Assembly (NCBI RefSeq): GCF_004684245.1
Contig: NZ_CP038452.1
Location: forward strand, 1,660,796 to 1,724,795
Direction: 5' to 3'
Length of the DNA: 64,000 nt
Source of the DNA: Thermus caldilimi
Lineage (GTDB): Bacteria > Deinococcota > Deinococci > Deinococcales > Thermaceae
The notes below the pieces were generated by a model, which was not told where the DNA came from, did no database searches, and saw nothing but the letters and a program-made list of their open reading frames with translations. The position numbers and the translations under genes were made by a program. Positions 48,497 to 60,093 of this stretch are shown in pieces (the stretch's first letter is position 1; every line of letters starts with the position of its first letter).

Positions 48497-48704
48497 GGCT
48501 CTGCTTTTTCTCGGAGTTTTACTGGTCCTTCTGGGTCTCGTGCTCCTCTATTTCCCCAAGGTCTTTTCCTGGTTCGGCCACCTGCCGGGGGACATCCGAA
48601 TCGAGCGGGAAGGCCTACGGGTGTACATTCCCATCACTTCGGCCCTGGTTCTTTCCCTTCTTCTCACCCTGCTCTGGAATCTCCTGGGCCTTCTTCGCCG
48701 CTAA
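48483..48704 (+). CDS. DUF2905 small membrane protein
   Basis: A 73-aa DUF2905 protein. Two membrane helices (about 5-25 and 50-70) flank the conserved FGHLPGDIRIEREGLRVYIPI loop. It overlaps glk by 14 bp. Its last 90 bp are antisense to the 3' end of the SARP-like regulator gene. Confidence 0.85.
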   Translation: MEVGKALLFLGVLLVLLGLVLLYFPKVFSWFGHLPGDIRIEREGLRVYIPITSALVLSLLLTLLWNLLGLLRR

Positions 48705-50336
48705 GACCCACACGTCCACCGGAGCCTTGCCTGAACGGAAGGCGCCCTCGTCCGACCGCAGGCGGTAGGCCCGCAGGGAAAACTCCGCCACCCCCAGACC
48801 GGAAAAACGCAAGCGGAAAGGGCCAGGGGGAAGGAGAAGGCGATGGGCAAAGGATCCCTCCAGGCGTAGATGCCCTTCCCCCCAGGCCCCCCGCAAGGCC
48901 AACAGAAGCCCCCAGGAATCCTCGGGAGCATAGGCCTCTCCCAAAAGCTCCAACACCGCCTCCTCCTCCAAGGAGGCGAAGTCTAGGTAGGCCTTATCCG
49001 TGGGCTCCAAGAGAACCAGGCCAAACCCCTGCCCTAAGGGAAAGACCCCTTGGTTGCCCTGCACCAGCAAGGCCAGCTCCCGCCCCAGCCCCCTTCTTTC
49101 CCAAACCCTCCCCTCCCCAAACACGGCCTGGCGTAGATGCGGGTCCAAAAGGCCTTCGTACCCCTCCCCCAAGGCCTTCCGGTGCATGGCCTCCTCCTGG
49201 TTGCGGCCCGCAAGAGCCAAGGCGGTGGCCGCACGCTCGTGAAGCTCGCGCCTTCGGCCCGGGGGCAGGGTGGAAGAAAAAAAGCGGCGCTCTGCTTCTT
49301 TAGCGAAGCGATACCCCTCCTGGTAAACCAGCCATCCCTTGCGCTCCAGCTCCTCCAGGTAAGGCAGGGCTCCCAGGGCGTCCAGGGCCTGCTCAGGAAT
49401 GGGCCCCAAGGCCACGGAAAGCCGCTCCAGGGCCACGCGGGCGGGTTCGCTAAGCCAGCGGGATTGTAGGCGAAGCTGGGCCAGGAGGCGCTGAGGACAA
49501 CCGGCCGAAGCCAGCCACTCGGGGATCCATTCGGGCTGGCCTCCCGCCAGGAAGTAGGCCCTGGCAGCTTGCTGGAAACCATACCCAGCCAGGAGCCCCT
49601 GCCTGGCCTCGAGCCAGGGTATTGGGGGAAGCTCCAGCACCCGCATGCGCTCTGGAGGATAGTTGGCGCGTAGCTCCAGGAAGAAGCGGGGCTCCTCCCC
49701 TGGGTCCAGGCTCAGGACCAAAAAGGCTTTGGAGCGCAGAAGCTCCCGCAAGGGCACCTGGGGATAGGGGGACTCCAGGTAGACCAAACCCTCTGGGCGC
49801 AGGCTCTGGTGGAAGGCCAGGCCCAGAACCCGGGCCAGCTCCTGGGCTAACTGGCGCTGGCCCGCTCCAAGCCGCCCCCTTAACACCAAAAGAAATGGGG
49901 GACGCAAAGAGGAAAGCTCCCGTAAGAGTTCCTGGCGGCAGGGAAGGCCAGGAAAGGCCTCGGAGCGGGTGCGCACCTCCTGCACCCACTCCCACAAGCC
50001 CTCCACCTCCTCCAAGCCCTCCAGAACCTCCCCGTGCCCCAAGGTCTCCAGCTTCAGCCAAGGAGGCAACGCCAAAGGATCCTGCCCCCTGGGGAAAACC
50101 TCCCGCCCCAAAGCCCGGCTCAGGCGGTGTAGCTCCACCCTTAGGTTCTGCAGGGCCGAGCTGTGACCGTAGAGGAGGTCGGCCAGGCGGGCCCTCGAGG
50201 TGGGCCCCTCGAGGGCCAGGTAGTAAAGCAGGGCCAGCCCCTTGCGGGAAACCCGCAGCTCCTCACCCTGGAAAACCACCCGTGCCCGGCCGAAAAGGGG
50301 CAGGGCATAAACCGGATCGTTAAGGGGGCGTTTCAA
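48615..50336 (-). CDS. SARP-like transcriptional regulator with degenerate ATPase region
   Basis: A 573-aa protein starting at TTG 50336, with AAGGAAGG upstream. Residues about 10-78 form an OmpR/SARP-type winged helix (ALPLFGRARVVFQGEEL, RVSRKGLALLYYLALEG, LRVELHRLSRALG). A P-loop-like GRLGAGQRQ at 154-162 lacks the usual lysine, so the STAND-type NTPase module is probably inactive. The rest is helical. It is divergent from the envelope operon at 50489, which has tandem 11-bp repeats in its promoter, so this is the likely activator. Its 3' end overlaps the DUF2905 gene by 90 bp. Confidence 0.72.
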   Translation of the reverse strand: MKRPLNDPVYALPLFGRARVVFQGEELRVSRKGLALLYYLALEGPTSRARLADLLYGHSSALQNLRVELHRLSRALGREVFPRGQDPLALPPWLKLETLGHGEVLEGLEEVEGLWEWVQEVRTRSEAFPGLPCRQELLRELSSLRPPFLLVLRGRLGAGQRQLAQELARVLGLAFHQSLRPEGLVYLESPYPQVPLRELLRSKAFLVLSLDPGEEPRFFLELRANYPPERMRVLELPPIPWLEARQGLLAGYGFQQAARAYFLAGGQPEWIPEWLASAGCPQRLLAQLRLQSRWLSEPARVALERLSVALGPIPEQALDALGALPYLEELERKGWLVYQEGYRFAKEAERRFFSSTLPPGRRRELHERAATALALAGRNQEEAMHRKALGEGYEGLLDPHLRQAVFGEGRVWERRGLGRELALLVQGNQGVFPLGQGFGLVLLEPTDKAYLDFASLEEEAVLELLGEAYAPEDSWGLLLALRGAWGEGHLRLEGSFAHRLLLPPGPFRLRFSGLGVAEFSLRAYRLRSDEGAFRSGKAPVDVWVLAAKKAQEIPEQGEKKGKNQGRSDGNVHP

Positions 50337-50337
50337 A

Positions 50338-50438
50338 GCGTTACCTTCCTTGCCCTTGATACTACCACGTTCCCGTGGGCTCCTTGGGCTACGGATTTCC
50401 TTCCCGTAACGCTCCCGTAACGCCCCTTTCCTTAGGGT
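50338..50438. promoter_or_regulatory. Regulator/envelope-operon intergenic control region
   Basis: TCCCGTAACGC occurs twice in perfect tandem (50402-50412, 50413-50423). TAGGGT (50433-50438), a TANNNT -10 box, begins 9 bp further on. An inverted copy of the core, GCGTTAC, is at 50338-50344, one base from the regulator's TTG. The regulator's -10 is TAGTAT (50364-50359). CCACG-TTCC-CGTGG (50365-50378) is a 14-bp inverted repeat just upstream of it. The arrangement suits activation of the operon and autoregulation. Confidence 0.7.
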
Positions 50439-50488
50439 GAGGGCGTCCTGAGAGGCCACCACCTCGAGGGGCAGATTCGGAGGGATAT

Positions 50489-51322
50489 ATGCGCAAAGGC
50501 ATTTTGGCAGCAGTATTGGTTTTAGCACCCCTGGCTTTGGCCCAGGCGCCCACCGTGGCCCCCACCAAGGGGAATGGTCCGGACGCCTACGCCAAGGGTA
50601 CCGACTCCGCCGCCGTCAACCAGACCATCGAGCTCATCCTGCCCAAGGCCACGGCGTTGCACCTGGACGTGACCACCCTGACCTTTGACCTGACGGGGCT
50701 GGACGGGGCCAGCTGGCCCAACTCCACCCCGGACTTCGGCGGGCAGATGGTCTGCGTGTACGGCCTTACGGAGCAAGACGTGAAGACCCAGCTGGGGAAC
50801 AACTTCTACAACCAAGTGCAGACCCTGCCCTTGGGGACCAGCTACGGCGTGGCCCAGTGGCCCAACATCACCATCAACGGTGGTGGGGCGGTCACCGCCT
50901 ACCCCCCCATCAAGCTGGATAATAACGGGGAGCTGGTTCCCGGCAGCAAGAACTACTTCGTCTGCTACCGGAGCTTCATCCTGCAGAAGTTCTCCAACGG
51001 CAAACAGTGGCACCTGACCGTGAACCGCAACGACCCCCAAGGGGCCCAGGGGATCCAGCACCTTTACATCCAGGACAACCCCTGCGACACCTTCGGCGCG
51101 GCCACGGGGCTTTACGAGCTTCCCAACGGGGCCACCCTGGAACTGGTACCCCGCAACCTGCAGGCCGGCCCCACGGGAACCCGCTCCGGCAACAACCCCG
51201 AGCGGTGCGGCTACAAGAGCTGGCTGGATGACCTGGTGGTGGTGGCCGTCAAGGTCAACAGCGACCTCTGGGGCAAGAGCACCGCGAACCTCACCTACAC
51301 CTTGGCCACGACCGCCTGGTAG
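50489..51322 (+). CDS. Secreted protein, putative major surface subunit
   Basis: A 277-aa protein with a clear signal peptide (MRKGILAAVLVLAPLALAQA). The mature part is rich in Asn, Thr, Gly and Tyr, beta-predicted, and has four cysteines (CVYGL, FVCYRS, NPCDTF, ERCGYK) that could form two disulfides. It ends in TYTLATTAW. I do not recognise the family. It is first in the operon, with GGAGGG before the ATG, and is followed by a 13-bp perfect hairpin, as expected for an abundant subunit made in excess of downstream genes. Confidence 0.7.
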   Translation: MRKGILAAVLVLAPLALAQAPTVAPTKGNGPDAYAKGTDSAAVNQTIELILPKATALHLDVTTLTFDLTGLDGASWPNSTPDFGGQMVCVYGLTEQDVKTQLGNNFYNQVQTLPLGTSYGVAQWPNITINGGGAVTAYPPIKLDNNGELVPGSKNYFVCYRSFILQKFSNGKQWHLTVNRNDPQGAQGIQHLYIQDNPCDTFGAATGLYELPNGATLELVPRNLQAGPTGTRSGNNPERCGYKSWLDDLVVVAVKVNSDLWGKSTANLTYTLATTAW

Positions 51323-51328
51323 CAAGCC

Positions 51329-51358
51329 GGAAGGCCTGGCCTTGGGGCCAGGCCTTCC
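51329..51358 (+). terminator. 13-bp perfect hairpin after the first operon gene
   Basis: GGAAGGCCTGGCC pairs perfectly with GGCCAGGCCTTCC around TTGG. No T tract follows, so partial termination or 3'-end protection is more likely than a full stop. The next gene starts 14 bp later. Confidence 0.65.
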
Positions 51359-51372
51359 CCCTTCGGTGAACC

Positions 51373-52215
51373 ATGAAGCGACTCTTTCCCCTCCCTCTCA
51401 TTCTGGCCCTCGGCGCCCTGGCCCAAAGCACCTTGGGCGTGGAACCCCCGGTCCTCCTTAAGGAGGCCAAGCCGGGGGAGGTACTCACGCAAACCCTCAC
51501 GGTCTACAACGTGGGCACCCGCCCGGTGCGGGTGCGGGCCAGCCTGGGGGACTGGACCTACGACCCCATGGGAAAGATCCAGTTCCTGCCCACGGGTACC
51601 TTGAAGGAAAGCGCAAGCCCCTGGGCCACCTTTTCTCCGGCGGAATTTTTGCTGGAACCCAAGCAAAGCCGCCCTCTCACCTACACCCTCACCGTGCCCA
51701 AGGACGCTGTCTCCGGCACCCACTGGGGCATCCTCTTCCTGGAATCCGAGGATCCCAACCCACCCCCCGGGGTACCCCTGGCCACCTTCCGGGTGCGCAT
51801 GGCCCATGTCTTCTACGTGAACATAGGACCTTTAACCACTGGGGGGCGGATCACCGGGATCGTGCCCAGCCCCCCTAAGAACCCGCAGGAGCCCTACCGC
51901 TTCGCCATCCAGTACCAGAATACGGGCAACACCGCCCAGAAGCTTTCCGGCCGCTTTGAGGTACGGGACAGTATGGGGCGGAAGGTGGCGGAAGCCGAGG
52001 TGGAGGAGGTGGTGGTGCTGCCGGGCCAGGTGCGCATCCTCCCGGTAACCCTGGTGGGGCCATTGCCCGCAGGGAACTACACCGCTTTGGCCATCCTCAA
52101 CTACGGCGACCCCACCAAGGACGTGGCCGCAGACCTGCCCTTCACCCTGCGCACCCCCTTGAGCGCCCCACCTGCGCCTCCGGTGAACGAGGGGGGAAAA
52201 GGAGGTACCCCATGA
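51373..52215 (+). CDS. PapD-like periplasmic chaperone (putative)
   Basis: A 280-aa exported protein with the signal peptide MKRLFPLPLILALGALAQS. Residues about 30-130 look like the N-terminal Ig domain of pilus chaperones: a TLTVYNVGTRPVRVRASLGDW strand pair, then SPWATFSPAEFLLEPKQSRP and SGTHWGILFLESEDP. A second beta domain and a proline/glycine-rich tail follow. Comparison is by pattern only. It lies between two small secreted proteins, upstream of a large barrel, as chaperones do in chaperone-usher operons. Its stop overlaps the next start (ATGA). Confidence 0.6.
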   Translation: MKRLFPLPLILALGALAQSTLGVEPPVLLKEAKPGEVLTQTLTVYNVGTRPVRVRASLGDWTYDPMGKIQFLPTGTLKESASPWATFSPAEFLLEPKQSRPLTYTLTVPKDAVSGTHWGILFLESEDPNPPPGVPLATFRVRMAHVFYVNIGPLTTGGRITGIVPSPPKNPQEPYRFAIQYQNTGNTAQKLSGRFEVRDSMGRKVAEAEVEEVVVLPGQVRILPVTLVGPLPAGNYTALAILNYGDPTKDVAADLPFTLRTPLSAPPAPPVNEGGKGGTP

Positions 52216-52700
52216 GAAGTTGGCTAACCGGTTTCATCCTCCTCTTGGTCCCGGCCCTGGCCCAGGCCACCTGGATCGTGCAGACCCTGATCCCCGAGAC
52301 CATCGCCCTCCGCACCCCCACCACCCAGATCGCCTTTGATCTTCAGGACTACCCCCCCAAGGCGTTTCCCGCCACCTACCCCGCCAGCAACCTGGAGGGG
52401 GGCGTCTTACCGGTTCAGGTCTTCTCCAATGCCACCGGGGTGTGGAGCCTTCTCCTGCAGATCCCCGACCTGAAGGATCAAAACGGGGTTTTGGTGCTGC
52501 CTGCCAGACAGGTCCTCTACCGGGTGAACGGAGGGCTTTGGCTTAGGGCCGATGGCACCCCGCAGATCATCTACACCCAGGCGGGCCCCACGGGGGACTG
52601 GCTGGAGATCCGCCTAGAGTTCGCCCTCGAGCTTCTCGGCAACGAGCGCGCCGGTAGCTACGTGGTCCAGGCCCTGGTCACCGCCTTGAGGCAACCGTGA
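52212..52700 (+). CDS. Small secreted beta protein, putative minor subunit
   Basis: A 162-aa protein with the signal peptide MRSWLTGFILLLVPALAQA. The mature 143 residues are beta-rich (TTQIAFDL, VWSLLLQIPDL, QVLYRVNGGLW, LEIRLEFALELLG), in the size range of pilin-like or spore-coat-U-like subunits. No cysteines remain after the signal. It is coupled to the chaperone-like gene by ATGA and followed by the barrel gene after 1 bp. Confidence 0.6.
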   Translation: MRSWLTGFILLLVPALAQATWIVQTLIPETIALRTPTTQIAFDLQDYPPKAFPATYPASNLEGGVLPVQVFSNATGVWSLLLQIPDLKDQNGVLVLPARQVLYRVNGGLWLRADGTPQIIYTQAGPTGDWLEIRLEFALELLGNERAGSYVVQALVTALRQP

Positions 52701-52701
52701 G

Positions 52702-55299
52702 ATGAGGCGTTTTCTGGCTCTTTTCCCCCTCCTTCTTGGCCTGGTCTGGGCCCAGGTGCGCTTTATTCCTTCCCCGGACCTAGCCGGGGTTCCAGGGGAT
52801 TACCTTACCTTGAGCCTGAGGGTGGAGGGAACAGGGCCGGTGCGCTTCCGCCTCTTCCCCCCGGAGGGGTGGCAGGCCCTTTCCCAAGAGAGGCAGGCGG
52901 TGCTGGAGGGCAAGGAGGAAACCCTAAGCTTCACCCTACGGGTACCCCCTCTGCCTGCGGGCACCCGGGGGAAGGCCTTGGTGGTGGCCTACGAGGGGGA
53001 AAAGGAAGTGGCCAGGACCGAGGTGGGGCTAAGGGTGTTGCCCCTGATCCAGATAGCCCTTTCCGCTCCCGCCACCCTCGAGGCCAGCCTAGGGGGGCCC
53101 TTTGAGTTCCCGGTCTACGTCAGCAACCGCTCCAATCAGAAAGAAGAAATCCTTTTGCAAGCGGAAGCCGCCATGTTCCAGGTGTTTTTAAACCCGGCGG
53201 GCCTGAGCCTGGCCCCCGGGGAAACCGGGGTGGTGCGGGTCTTGGTGAACCCTGAGGGGCAGGTCTCCGCCGGCTACCGGTTCTACCTGAAGCTCAGGGC
53301 CACCCCCAAGACCCAGCCCGAGGCCCGTAAAGAGGCCGGGATCATCGTGCTCTTCAAGGATCCCTTGCTGGCAAGCGGCCAAAAGGGCCGAGACCCTGAG
53401 ATCACCCTGGGCCTAGGCGTGGCCTTGAGCCTGGGGGCCACCTGGGAACAAGGCCAGCTCCAGGGGCAGGTAGGCTACCTTCTGGCCCCGAGCCTGAGCG
53501 GGGCCCTCTCGGACTACGTGACCGCCACTGCCGCCCCAAGCCCCCTCACGGGGGATTTGCAGAATCCCTTGCGCCTGCCCCAAACCCTTGCCTTAAGCCT
53601 CAAGGGCGAAGGCTGGGAGGCCCGGGCCCAAGGGGGGCAGGGAAGCTTTGGCCTGGCCTCCACCTTCCGCCTGGACCCGGCGCGGGTGAGCCTCGAGGGC
53701 ACCTACCGCCCAGGGGGCCTGGGCCTTAGGGCCAGCGCGGTGAGCCTGGACAAGAACCTGGACCTCCAGGGGGCCCTCTCCACGCAAACCGCCCCCACGG
53801 GCCGGCAGGACAACCTCAGCCTGCGCTACCGGCTCCCCCTGGAGGGAGGCTTCAACCTGGGCCTTGGCACCGACCTCAGCGGCCAGACCGGGGAGGGCTA
53901 CCGCCTTTCCCTGGGCTTGAGCCAAAGCCTCACCTGGCAGACCCAGGATTTGGAGCTGGTGCAAAGCTACGGCGGCATACCCCTGGCGGGCCTTCACACC
54001 CTGGGCCTGGCGGGAGGCACCCGGAACCTCTACCCCTTGGGCCTTCGGGGAAGCACCAGCTGGCAGCTTGGCCCCAGCCAGGGCCTTTGGCAAAACCAGC
54101 TCACCCTCTACGCCCAGCCCGTAGCCGGGGCCCTCGTAAGCCTCACGGGTAGCTACCGGCAGCAAGGGGAAAACCGGGGTTATGGCCTGGCCCCAAGCCT
54201 CAGCACCGCCTTCGGCGAACCTGGGGTGTACACTGGAAGCCTCAGCCTGGTCTACGGCTTGAACCGAAGGCTTTCCGGGGAAGCCCCCGAGAACCAGAGC
54301 TACCAAGCCGGCCTCACCCTGGGAACCCGCGACCTGAGCCTCTCCGGCTACCTCCGGTACCTTCTGCAGGAGAATCCCCTTCTGGAAGGGAGCCTATTGC
54401 TACGGCTGATCTTGAGCGGGGGGAGCCTCGAGGGGCAGTACCTGGCAAAGCGGGGCACGGAAAAGGACCTCACCCTCTACGGGGCTGCCTGGAACCAGCT
54501 CTGGCCGGGAAGTCTGCAAACCCGCCTCTCTTACGAGTACCGCCTGGAAGAAAGCGCGAGCCAGCGCTTTGGCCTTTCCCTATTCCAGCGCAACTTCCTG
54601 GAACCCAGTCTTTCCCTAGGAGCCTCCTACACCCTCATCCTGGAAGAAGCCGGGATCCGCCATGACTTTGGCCTGAGCCTGGCCTACACGCAAACCTTCA
54701 CCTTCACCACCCCCAAAGAGGTGGTGGACCTCTTCGGCGGCCGCAAGGGAGGCGAGGTGGCGGGCCAGGCCTTCCGCGACGAGAACCTGAACGGGCGCCT
54801 GGATCCAGGCGAGGCACCCCTAGCGGGCCTGAGGGTCTGCCTGGGAAAGACCTGCGAAACCACCGACGCCCAGGGCCGCTACCGCCTTTTCACCGCTGCT
54901 GGCGAGGGCGTCCTCTTTTTCGGCAACCTTCCCGCCACCCTGGCCCTCTTGGGGGAGGAGCGGGTACAGGTAACCTTGAACACCAGCCTGGAGAAGAACC
55001 TGCCCTTTGCTCCCGCCACCACCCTGGCGGTCCAGGTGTTGGACGGCGGAAACGAGCAGGGCCTGGCCTTCGCCGGCGTCTGCGCCGAGGGGGTGGTGAA
55101 GCGGTGCACCCGGGCGGACGCCAATGGCCGAGCCCTCATCGGCGGGCTTTTCCGCGGGGAATATCGGGTCTATCCTGATGCCCGCTACCTGCCCGAGGGC
55201 TACCGTGGCGAAGAGGCCATCCAGGTTCAGGTAGACCCCAGCCTACCCCTTAAGGCGATCCAGGTGGTGGCCATTCCCCCAGGCGGGAGGTGGAGGTGA
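52702..55299 (+). CDS. Large outer-membrane beta-barrel, usher-like (putative)
   Basis: An 865-aa exported protein with the signal peptide MRRFLALFPLLLGLVWAQ. Residues about 20-220 form two Ig-like domains (NEW3-like: GDYLTLSLRVEGTGPVRFRL). Residues about 230-670 are a long run of alternating strands separated by Gly/Ser/Leu turns, typical of a 20-plus-strand barrel. F666-TFTTPKEVVD ends it. A C-terminal SdrB/carboxypeptidase-regulatory-like domain follows (FRDENLNGRLDPGEAPLAGLRV, with a likely calcium loop) and then another beta domain. This is not a standard FimD order. It could also be a channel or adhesin scaffold. Confidence 0.62.
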   Translation: MRRFLALFPLLLGLVWAQVRFIPSPDLAGVPGDYLTLSLRVEGTGPVRFRLFPPEGWQALSQERQAVLEGKEETLSFTLRVPPLPAGTRGKALVVAYEGEKEVARTEVGLRVLPLIQIALSAPATLEASLGGPFEFPVYVSNRSNQKEEILLQAEAAMFQVFLNPAGLSLAPGETGVVRVLVNPEGQVSAGYRFYLKLRATPKTQPEARKEAGIIVLFKDPLLASGQKGRDPEITLGLGVALSLGATWEQGQLQGQVGYLLAPSLSGALSDYVTATAAPSPLTGDLQNPLRLPQTLALSLKGEGWEARAQGGQGSFGLASTFRLDPARVSLEGTYRPGGLGLRASAVSLDKNLDLQGALSTQTAPTGRQDNLSLRYRLPLEGGFNLGLGTDLSGQTGEGYRLSLGLSQSLTWQTQDLELVQSYGGIPLAGLHTLGLAGGTRNLYPLGLRGSTSWQLGPSQGLWQNQLTLYAQPVAGALVSLTGSYRQQGENRGYGLAPSLSTAFGEPGVYTGSLSLVYGLNRRLSGEAPENQSYQAGLTLGTRDLSLSGYLRYLLQENPLLEGSLLLRLILSGGSLEGQYLAKRGTEKDLTLYGAAWNQLWPGSLQTRLSYEYRLEESASQRFGLSLFQRNFLEPSLSLGASYTLILEEAGIRHDFGLSLAYTQTFTFTTPKEVVDLFGGRKGGEVAGQAFRDENLNGRLDPGEAPLAGLRVCLGKTCETTDAQGRYRLFTAAGEGVLFFGNLPATLALLGEERVQVTLNTSLEKNLPFAPATTLAVQVLDGGNEQGLAFAGVCAEGVVKRCTRADANGRALIGGLFRGEYRVYPDARYLPEGYRGEEAIQVQVDPSLPLKAIQVVAIPPGGRWR

Positions 55300-55817
55300 C
55301 CTATACCGCAGGCCGTCTGAGCCTGGTGGCCACCGCCGACCCCTCCACCCCCATCGCCGGGGCCGAGGTGGAGGTCAAAGCCCTGGTCCAAGGAGAAGCG
55401 GAGCGGGTCTGGCTGGATCTCCCCTCGGGCCCAGTAACCCTAGTCCGCCAGGAGGGAAACTACTACACCGCCCGGATACGTCTGCCCTTGGCCCCCGGGT
55501 TCCATACCCTGACTGTGAAAGCCGCCAAAGGGCAGGAGGAGGCCGAGGCTCCCCTTTTCCTCCGGCTGGTCGCCGGCTCCCTCTACAGCCCCAGCTCCCT
55601 GGAAGGTCCTAAGGTAAAGATCGCCCTGCGCTTCCGGGCTACCCAGGTAGCCCTTATGGAAAAGGGCCAAAGCTTCCCCCTAAAAAGCGAGGACGGCTAC
55701 ACCTGGACCGGGGAAGTGCCCTTAAGCCCCGGTCACTACACCCTTTTGGTGCTGGCCGATGGGGAAAGGCTGGGTGAGGTGGGCCTGGCCATCCCCTCGG
55801 AAAGCGCGAACCATTGA
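55296..55817 (+). CDS. Ig-like protein without signal peptide
   Basis: A 173-aa beta-rich protein with two Ig-like halves (PIAGAEVEVKALVQGEAERVW; then GPKVKIALRFRATQVALMEKG). The GTG at 55296 overlaps the barrel stop (GTGA) and has GGGAGG 5 bases upstream; GTG 55290 is an alternative. Neither start gives a signal peptide, unlike every other gene in the operon. It may be cytoplasmic, or be made as an extension of the barrel by frameshifting, for which no classic slippery site is seen. Confidence 0.6.
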   Translation: MTYTAGRLSLVATADPSTPIAGAEVEVKALVQGEAERVWLDLPSGPVTLVRQEGNYYTARIRLPLAPGFHTLTVKAAKGQEEAEAPLFLRLVAGSLYSPSSLEGPKVKIALRFRATQVALMEKGQSFPLKSEDGYTWTGEVPLSPGHYTLLVLADGERLGEVGLAIPSESANH

Positions 55818-55847
55818 GGTTCAAAGATTCGGAAAGGAGGGATAGGT

Positions 55848-57011
55848 ATGCGGTATTGGTACGGGATTCTTTTAGCGGTCGGCCTCCTTGGGGCCTGCTC
55901 CCAGGCTCCCCAAGGCGTTAAGCCCCAGGTGGCGGTAGGAGCCTCGGTAACGGTGGAAAAAACGGCGGTACCGGAGTTCAAGCGCACCTACCGCTGGAGC
56001 ATGGAGAAGAAGGTGACGGATCCGGCAGGCGGAACCCTTACCCTGGCCCCAGGGCAATCCTACTTGGTCAAGTATGCGGTGTCCCTGGTGGGCACCCCCA
56101 CCGACTCGGACTTCAAGGTAAAGGGCACGGTTACCATCAAGAATACGGGCAGCGTGGACGTCCTTCTGCAGGCCCTTAGCGATACCCTTTCCACAGGCGA
56201 AACCGTAGCCCTCAACTGTGGTGTAAGCCTCCCCTACACCCTGCCCGCAGGGCAAAGCCTGAGCTGCACCTACAGCCAAGACCTGCCCAACGGCCAGAGC
56301 CGGACCAACACCGCCACGGTGGCCTGGAGTGGCGGCGGGGAAAGCGGCACCGCCTCGAGCCAGGCCAGCTTCACCTTCACCACCCCCACCGAGGTGGTGG
56401 ACGGGAGCGTGACGGTGGCAGATCCCTCGGCCACCTTGGTTAACGCCATCAGCGGCATCACCCCGGAAGGCGTCATCTCCCAGACCTACTTCTTTGAGCG
56501 CTGGGTTAAGTTTGATCTATGCGGGGAGTACCGGGTGGACAACACCGCCACCTTCACCACCTCCGACACCCGGACCCAGGGTTCGGCCTCGGCCACCGTG
56601 CTGGTCAACGTACCCTGCGTGGGCGGCTGCACCCTTACCCCGGGCTACTGGAAGACCCACTCCAAGTACGGCCCCGCCCCCTACGACGACACCTGGGCCA
56701 AGATCGGCGAGGACACGCCTTTCTACCTCTCCGGCCAAAGCTACTACCAGGTCCTCTGGACCTCTCCCTCCGGAGGCAACGCCTACTACATTTTGGCCTT
56801 CCAGTTCATCGCCGCCAAGCTGAACGTCCTGAAGGGGGCCTCCACCACCCCTGACGTGGACACGGCCCTGGCCTGGGCGGAGACCTTCTTCCAGACCTAC
56901 AAGCCCAGCGACACCTTGAGCAAGGCCCTGGCCAATCAGGCCAAGAGCTACGCCGCCACCCTGGACGGCTACAATAACGGCGTCATCGGCCCTGGTCACT
57001 GCGACCAGTAA
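55848..57011 (+). CDS. Lipoprotein with GYWKTH domain
   Basis: A 387-aa lipoprotein; the lipobox is LLGAC with C17. Residues 30-180 are DUF11-like beta domains (VKYAVSLVGTPTDSDFKVKG). F175-TFTTPTEVVD repeats a motif that also ends the barrel of the upstream gene. A second beta domain follows. The C-terminal ~130 residues begin with CTLTPGYWKTHSKYG, a domain widespread in bacterial and archaeal surface proteins with no known function. AAGGAGG precedes ATG 55848. Probably a surface-exposed tip or anchor component. Confidence 0.68.
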   Translation: MRYWYGILLAVGLLGACSQAPQGVKPQVAVGASVTVEKTAVPEFKRTYRWSMEKKVTDPAGGTLTLAPGQSYLVKYAVSLVGTPTDSDFKVKGTVTIKNTGSVDVLLQALSDTLSTGETVALNCGVSLPYTLPAGQSLSCTYSQDLPNGQSRTNTATVAWSGGGESGTASSQASFTFTTPTEVVDGSVTVADPSATLVNAISGITPEGVISQTYFFERWVKFDLCGEYRVDNTATFTTSDTRTQGSASATVLVNVPCVGGCTLTPGYWKTHSKYGPAPYDDTWAKIGEDTPFYLSGQSYYQVLWTSPSGGNAYYILAFQFIAAKLNVLKGASTTPDVDTALAWAETFFQTYKPSDTLSKALANQAKSYAATLDGYNNGVIGPGHCDQ

Positions 57012-57021
57012 AGCCCCTTTG

Positions 57022-57048
57022 CCCGGGGTGGCCCCTGGTCACCCCGGG
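57022..57048 (+). terminator. 9-bp hairpin between the two lipoprotein genes
   Basis: CCCGGGGTG pairs perfectly with CACCCCGGG around a 9-base loop. Only GTTTCC follows, so it may attenuate rather than stop transcription. Confidence 0.5.
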
Positions 57049-57066
57049 GTTTCCAGGGAGAAAGAA

Positions 57067-57498
57067 ATGAAAAGATCCCTTTGGCTCCTTCTCGTGGCCC
57101 TCGCCGCTTGCACCGCCCCCCAGGGCATCAGGACCACCGGGTCCTTGCGCATCCAAAGCGTCCAGCCCGATGTGGTGGGGGGGTGCCGGGTGCGGGCCGG
57201 AGACTGGATGCTCCTCACCGGCAACACCTTCGGCACCCAGGCGGACTGGGACAGGGGCAGCAACCACGCCCTCTTTCCCCCCGACCCCGGCCTGCCCGCC
57301 GAGTCACCGGAAATCACCCGGGCAGAGAACCCGGCCACCCTCATGTTCCGCGTGCCCCAAGGGGCGCAAAGCGGCACCCTGCGCCTCCACGTGGAAGGCG
57401 TGGGGGACGCGGAAATCCCCATCGTGGTGGAGGGCCTGGCCCCCCAGATGGCGGTGCCGGGATGCGAACTGCCTACGCCCCCGCAAAACCCTAACTAG
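57067..57498 (+). CDS. Small lipoprotein, IPT/TIG-like
   Basis: A 143-aa lipoprotein, lipobox LAAC with C15. The mature region resembles an IPT/TIG fold (IQSVQPDVVGG, CRVRAGDWMLLTGNTFG, LMFRVPQGAQSGTLRLHVEG). Two cysteines remain (C in GGCRV and PGCELP) and may pair. Last gene of the envelope operon, followed by a hairpin at 57514. Confidence 0.65.
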   Translation: MKRSLWLLLVALAACTAPQGIRTTGSLRIQSVQPDVVGGCRVRAGDWMLLTGNTFGTQADWDRGSNHALFPPDPGLPAESPEITRAENPATLMFRVPQGAQSGTLRLHVEGVGDAEIPIVVEGLAPQMAVPGCELPTPPQNPN

Positions 57499-57513
57499 AA
57501 GCACCGAACCAAG

Positions 57514-57535
57514 CCCTCCTGCCCAGGCAGGGGGG
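57514..57535. terminator. Hairpin closing the envelope operon and folE
   Basis: CCCTCCTGC and GCAGGGGGG pair (one G-T wobble) around CCAG between convergent genes. It ends 1 bp before the folE stop. Confidence 0.5.
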
Positions 57536-58098
57536 TTCACTTTAGGTGGCTCAGAAACTCCTCCCGGGTCTTTTGGCTTTCCCGGAAGACCCCCAGCATG
57601 GCGCTGGTGGTGGTGCGGGAGTGCTGCTTCTCCACCCCCCGCATCATCATGCAGAGGTGGACCCCCTCCACCACCACCCCCACCCCCTGGGGCTCGAGGA
57701 TCTCCTGGATGGCCTCGGCGATCTGCACCGCCAGGCGCTCCTGCACCTGGAGCCTCCTGGCGAACATGTCCACGATGCGGGCGAACTTGGAAAGCCCCAG
57801 GATTTTCCCGTCTGGGATGTAGCCGATGTGCACCTGGCCGAAGAAGGGCAGCAGGTGGTGCTCGCACATGGAGTAGAACTCGATGCCCTTCACCACCACC
57901 ATCTCGCTGCCCTCCGCCTGGAAAACCGCTCCGTTGACGATCTCCCTCAGGTCCTGGCGGTAGCCGCGGGTGAGGAAGGCCCAGGCCTTGGCCACCCGCT
58001 CGGGGGTTTTCAGGAGACCTTCCCGGCTGGGATCCTCCCCGATGACCTCCAGCCATTCCCCTGCCAGGCGCTTCAAGCGCCCCAGGTCCACGTGGGTT

Positions 58099-60093
<1,995 letters not shown>

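Follow-up and report, generated by a model that had tools for sequence, protein, structure and literature searches.

Two groups of described surface systems come closest to the operon considered here, namely the WxL/WxLIP (DUF916-DUF3324) clusters of Gram-positive bacteria and the chaperone-usher pathways of the archaic (Csu, CupB/CupE; spore coat U) and classical (type 1 and P pili; FimC-FimD, PapD-PapC) kinds. For the former, an AlphaFold prediction fits a strand of WxLIP in parallel into a gap in WxL, completing the WxL sandwich, and the main paper on WxLIP makes no mention of a chaperone, of PapD or of a donor strand (PMC10599100). Geometrically, this predicted completion by a parallel strand corresponds to PapD-type donor-strand complementation. 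How chaperone-usher pili arose and what WxLIP does are both open questions, and they have so far been treated separately. The operon lies on the + strand at 50489-57498 of a 64,000-nucleotide stretch (hereafter the window, whose positions are used throughout) from the complete chromosome of Thermus caldilimi (one contig, 2.45 Mb; NZ_CP038452.1). Its core genes are the following.

50489..51322, + strand: P0001, subunit 1; 277 amino acids, exported, cysteine-containing, possibly WxL-like; paralogue of subunit 2
51373..52215, + strand: P0002, WxLIP/PapD-like candidate chaperone; 280 amino acids, two immunoglobulin-like (Ig) domains, predicted to be periplasmic; identified by hhalign and Foldseek
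52212..52700, + strand: P0003, subunit 2; 162 amino acids, exported; GVWSLLL motif, C-terminal AGSYVVQALVTALRQP
52702..55817, + strand: P0004+P0005, candidate usher-like outer-membrane protein; one gene, a single open reading frame (ORF) in 22 relatives

We favour, with somewhat better than even confidence, the interpretation that these genes represent an envelope system of the Deinococcota at large, which operates in the manner of a chaperone-usher pathway and is built from a WxL/WxLIP-like pair together with an usher-like barrel. The system is not established as a member of the chaperone-usher family, and it agrees only in part with the definitions of the two known kinds against which it was tested.

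The likeness to WxL/WxLIP clusters lies in P0002, whose homology to WxLIP extends across its two Ig domains, in the small exported beta protein encoded beside the WxLIP-type protein, and in subunits that carry a W-x-L-type motif and a last strand resembling GxYxxTLxWxL. In contrast to those clusters, P0002 has no C-terminal transmembrane segment, the subunits do not match PF13731 and have a second motif that is Y/F-x-L or absent, and the operon adds an outer-membrane protein of 1,000 amino acids in a host with two membranes. With the archaic chaperone-usher systems the operon shares gene order and gene sizes, the two-domain Ig chaperone fold of P0002 (CsuC and CupB2 are among its fold matches) and a large beta protein whose C-terminal domains are transthyretin-like. 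It differs from them in having no match to PF00577, PF00345 or PF05229, in a barrel protein that carries additional Ig domains at each end, and in sequences that are unrelated to those of the phylum's real archaic operon (L078, see below). The classical pili resemble it in mechanism, as proposed here, in the FimD/PapC entries listed for a weak model of the large protein, and in the match between the P0002 family and PapD (hhalign E-value of 1e-4). However, the usher-like protein has no detectable sequence homology to the classical ushers, and the subunits match no fimbrial families.

Conservation of the operon in Deinococcota

Relatives of P0004 are present in 38 of the 111 Deinococcota genomes searched, and the order P0001-P0002-P0003-P0004+P0005 is found in every one of the 24 neighbourhoods examined that contain the full locus, which come from several families and include a paralogous form termed type B. 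This conservation is far beyond chance. A first-pass annotation of the window had proposed an undescribed operon laid out like a chaperone-usher operon, and a check for scattered gene order bears out this proposal. The layout of a subunit, an Ig-type chaperone-like protein, a second subunit and a large outer-membrane protein that is divergent from FimD/PapC is conserved, and the linkage of subunit, chaperone-like and usher-like genes that characterizes chaperone-usher operons holds in 24/24 loci. The operon is also undescribed in the literature and records searched.

Gene order is unchanged in the type-B system (L048-L052, L054), in which as many as three P0001-like genes are arrayed in tandem and the barrel protein has ~950-1,000 amino acids. 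The large proteins of type B and of type A, the form found in the window, are homologous along their full length (hhalign probability 100). Within Thermus, type B occurs at L048, L049, L051 and L052, and some genomes of this genus carry both types while others carry type B only. Plasmids of Deinococcus hold the same four core genes, which every plasmid record examined annotates as 'hypothetical protein'; the minimal set, seen in D. deserti, has three genes. When a plasmid collection was searched with the barrel protein, matches were obtained in Deinococcus only. A third arrangement is seen at L053 and L055, where a P0002-like gene is convergent with a relative of the barrel protein (~975 amino acids) located on the opposite strand ~3 kb away.

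Relationship of P0002 to WxLIP and to pilus chaperones

Profile comparison identifies P0002 as a homologue of the WxLIP proteins of Gram-positive bacteria, to which it is far closer than to pilus chaperones. Alignment of the P0002 family to WxLIP by hhalign gave a probability of 99.4 and an E-value of 2.7e-21 over 210 columns (reversed control, 0.19), compared to a yardstick of 5e-11 for actinobacterial versus Firmicutes WxLIP. The match to a set of pilus chaperones that includes an archaic one spans both domains (2.6e-6, 207 columns; reversed, 0.12), and the values for the archaic chaperone alone and for PapD are 9e-7 and 1e-4, respectively; classical and archaic chaperones compare with each other at 2.4e-4. 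The family of P0002 is matched as well by the Ig domains at the N-terminus of the large protein (1e-8 to 1e-10) and by a reversed version (1e-3), and its link to PapD therefore holds at the level of the fold only. The link to WxLIP stands far above these Ig-domain controls.

Structure prediction is consistent with this relationship. The AlphaFold2 model of P0002 has a mean predicted local distance difference test score (pLDDT) of 61.9, reaching 75-88 in parts of the first domain, and comprises two beta-sandwiches; a long strand (138-151) precedes the junction between them and holds the invariant residues R142, Y148 and V149. A Foldseek search of the PDB with this model returned an Enterococcus WxLIP first (E-value of 1.9e-8; 9i1y/9i25), followed by the pilus chaperones CupB2, CsuC, DraB, Caf1M and FimC, with some ciliary Ig proteins mixed into the list. 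EfmWxLIP1 was also matched in a profile search of PDB sequences (0.013). The two Ig domains that define WxLIP, DUF916 and DUF3324, are recovered across both domains of P0002 by hhalign, Foldseek ranks WxLIP first, and the Pfam model PF06030 (WxLIP_PGBD), whose only match in the genome is P0002, places it below the cut-off (0.003). The C-terminal transmembrane helix that is also typical of WxLIP is absent from the hydropathy profile of P0002, which ends instead in a Pro-rich tail, and the protein has no match to PF00345. The earlier description of P0002 as PapD-like is therefore appropriate for its fold, and weakly so by profile, but its closest family, WxLIP, had gone unmentioned.

Small two-gene units encoding a small exported protein and a DUF916 protein were also observed in Actinobacteria (L071 7236-8813, L072 7086-8900 and L074 2057-3918). 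The unit from Arthrobacter has a sub-threshold WxL match (5.5e-4), although profiles barely connect the WxL proteins of Firmicutes with those of Actinobacteria.

The subunits P0001 and P0003

Comparison by hhalign shows that the two putative subunits are homologues of one another (probability 97.4, E-value of 1.1e-11; reversed control, 0.81). P0001 contains the motif SNGKQWHLTV and a C-terminal STANLTYTL strand, and 17 of 18 relatives have S-N-x-[WF]-x-L as well as a terminal strand of the Y/F-x-L type (LTYTL or VTFTL). Many relatives of P0003 have W-S-L. Alignment of the P0003 family to WxL proteins from Firmicutes and Actinobacteria gave an E-value of 0.007 (reversed, 0.46) and brought the first W-x-L and the final strand into register. 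This likeness to WxL domains is only suggestive, since the known WxL subfamilies of Firmicutes and Actinobacteria compare with each other at just 0.021.

Neither subunit matches any Pfam family, and a search with the Pfam WxL model (PF13731) was negative for the subunits and for the phylum as a whole. Comparisons with fimbrial pilins and SCPU gave no match and the controls were equally blind. No family match places the subunits among the fimbrial or spore-coat-U proteins. An 833-amino-acid frame in an incomplete Deinococcota genome (G072:C341, 4569-5000) exceeds the PF13731 cut-off only when two stretches are summed.

The large usher-like protein and its frameshift

The intact large protein is 1038 amino acids long. 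It begins with two Ig-like domains and ends with two more, and its C-terminal part matches SdrD_B and CarboxypepD_reg (PF17210/PF13620). A crude scan for amphipathic strands detects 24 segments in the barrel region, compared to 21 in FimD-type ushers (where the true number is 24) and 21 in type B. AlphaFold2 prediction from seven close sequences reached a pLDDT of 46.5, which is too poor to confirm a barrel, and we use this model as a hint only. Among the 50 Foldseek matches listed for it, FimD/PapC appear repeatedly and no other outer-membrane barrels are present. The protein may be an usher or a closed barrel. The usher model PF00577 has no match in the 111 genomes, but this is weak evidence because a real archaic usher from the phylum itself escapes the model as well.

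In the window the gene is divided into two ORFs as follows.

52702-55299, + strand: P0004 as called, 865 amino acids
55290-55817, + strand: P0005 as called, 175 amino acids
55276..55280, + strand: frameshift C-run, one C fewer than in the sister genome by nucleotide alignment

P0004 and P0005 form one continuous ORF of ~950-1,150 amino acids in all 22 relatives in which both parts were found. Nucleotide alignment reveals 5 C at 55276-55280 compared to 6 C in a sister genome that is 98% identical, and the frame is kept in all other aligned relatives. The single ORF in relatives and the one-base deletion in the C-run rule out P0005 as a separate protein. Rather than a signal-less Ig-like protein in its own right, as had been supposed, it is the C-terminal Ig-like part of the large protein, and the operon therefore comprises six genes instead of seven. 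The deletion may be a real truncation or an assembly error. If real, it would remove the last two Ig-like domains, and its absence from the sister genome and all other relatives would fit a system that has become inactive in this strain. This is possible, though we doubt it: the deletion cannot be told from an assembly error, 860 amino acids with the barrel and C-terminal-domain-like regions remain intact, and so do the remaining genes of the operon.

An archaic chaperone-usher operon in one genome

One Deinococcota genome carries a genuine archaic chaperone-usher operon (L078; G003:C134, 805-4191). It encodes a chaperone that matches PF00345 (PapD_N; 4.5e-14), a 735-amino-acid usher that is missed by PF00577, and an SCPU subunit. 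No relative of this usher was found in any other genome of the phylum set, which indicates that the archaic operon and the WxLIP-like operon are distinct systems. Where the literature claims archaic pili for Deinococcus-Thermus, an operon of this type is probably meant.

Proposed mechanism and alternative explanations

In the mechanism we propose, P0001 and P0003 would each be left with an incomplete beta-sandwich after Sec export, and the first domain of P0002 would lend a strand to the subunit, as is predicted for WxLIP and WxL and as PapD does for pilins. P0002, free of the membrane, would keep both subunits soluble in the periplasm and pass them to the large protein at its N-terminal domains; this protein, a putative barrel of ~24 strands, would provide the site of exit and assembly. 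The exported subunits might then polymerize or coat the cell, with the lipoproteins (see below) acting as accessory anchors or tips and the divergent SARP-like protein P0008 regulating the operon.

Several points weigh against this interpretation. Strand donation, secretion and fibre formation are inferred. The PapD signal of P0002 is partly generic to Ig-like domains, given its match to those of the large protein. The poor quality of the large-protein model makes its Foldseek matches, which also include ciliary Ig and complement proteins, untrustworthy. By hhalign, the large protein compares with FimD-type ushers no better than reversed controls; this test has no power, because its positive control of classical versus archaic ushers fails too, and it was dropped as evidence either way. 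Finally, the homology of the subunits to WxL is below significance, and the Pfam WxL model finds neither of them.

One alternative is that the operon is a divergent archaic chaperone-usher system, with a true usher, a PapD-type chaperone (P0002) and pilins (P0001 and P0003) that have diverged beyond the reach of Pfam. Gene order and sizes, the fold matches of P0002 to CsuC, CupB2 and FimC together with its similarity to the real archaic chaperone, and the FimD/PapC matches of the weak barrel model all speak for this view, and the failure of PF00577 on the phylum's own archaic usher lessens the weight of the Pfam negatives. We nevertheless consider it unlikely. No component matches PF00577, PapD_N or SCPU, the bona fide archaic operon of the phylum is unrelated in sequence, P0002 compares with WxLIP at 1e-21 versus 1e-6 for pilus chaperones, and usher architecture does not accommodate two Ig domains at the N-terminus and a further two at the C-terminus. 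Slightly less probable still is a WxL-type cell-wall complex in which P0002 holds P0001 and P0003 on peptidoglycan and the large protein is an outer-membrane anchor or porin, with no fibre exported. Deinococcota have thick peptidoglycan, and the homology of P0002 to WxLIP, the WxL-like motif layout of the subunits and the pairing of WxL with WxLIP in Gram-positive clusters would all fit such a complex. It is at odds with the Pro-rich tail that P0002 has in place of the WxLIP membrane anchor, with an outer-membrane protein that is as strictly conserved as P0002, and with the tandem subunits of the paralogous loci, which recall pilus operons. The large protein might also be an unrelated outer-membrane beta protein that forms no secretion channel, in an operon that builds an envelope-stabilizing layer. 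The lack of a confident structure and of a sequence link to ushers would permit this, but its strict linkage to a WxLIP/PapD-type protein and two subunits, and the presence of ushers as the only outer-membrane barrels among the 50 fold matches listed, make this the most improbable of the readings.

Returning to the favoured chaperone-usher-like reading, we tentatively suggest that the operon could represent a third pathway of this kind, specific to Deinococcota as far as seen, with a soluble WxLIP-family chaperone, WxL-like subunits and a separate family of outer-membrane ushers. If true, this pathway would form an evolutionary bridge between the WxL/WxLIP surface complex of Gram-positive bacteria and the chaperone-usher pathway of Gram-negative bacteria. 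A family that is WxLIP by profile, matches pilus chaperones and is encoded beside an usher-sized outer-membrane protein means that a common origin can be tested directly. The operon would likewise equip Thermus and Deinococcus, whose two-membrane envelope is unusual, with a dedicated surface-assembly system.

Gene calls, accessory genes and the adjoining regulator

The remaining genes of the locus are listed below.

55848..57011, + strand: P0006, GYWKTH lipoprotein; 387 amino acids; accessory
57067..57498, + strand: P0007, small lipoprotein; 143 amino acids from ATG; kept in type-A loci
48615..50528, - strand: P0008, SARP-like regulator; 637 amino acids as called; divergent neighbour

As called, P0001-P0007 form a compact, co-directional set of ORFs, all located where the first-pass annotation had placed them. 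P0002 and P0003 overlap by 4 nucleotides and 1 nucleotide separates P0003 from P0004, a tight spacing that is as expected for translational coupling. Export of P0001-P0004 and the lipoprotein nature of P0006 and P0007 agree with signal peptides in the first four and lipoboxes in the other two (LGAC and LAAC, respectively) that are legible by eye; P0005 as called has neither.

The GYWKTH protein is present as a lipoprotein, but P0006 was detected only in Thermus and the genus closest to it. On its distribution it is a Thermaceae-only add-on outside the conserved core. P0007 follows the core in most type-A loci. Its start had been placed at TTG 57019 and is most likely ATG 57067, where relatives begin.

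A homologue of P0008 adjoins 20 of the 24 loci and is divergent to the operon each time, as expected from the proposal of an adjacent regulator. A Pfam search with P0008 gave no match at a meaningful E-value; read by eye, its N-terminus is winged-helix-like and precedes a degenerate P-loop region. Conserved adjacency suggests that this SARP-like protein may control the operon. Downstream of the operon (57500-58187) lies a GC-rich stretch that resembles an inverted repeat, together with a convergent ORF (57537-58187, - strand) that reads like GTP cyclohydrolase I.

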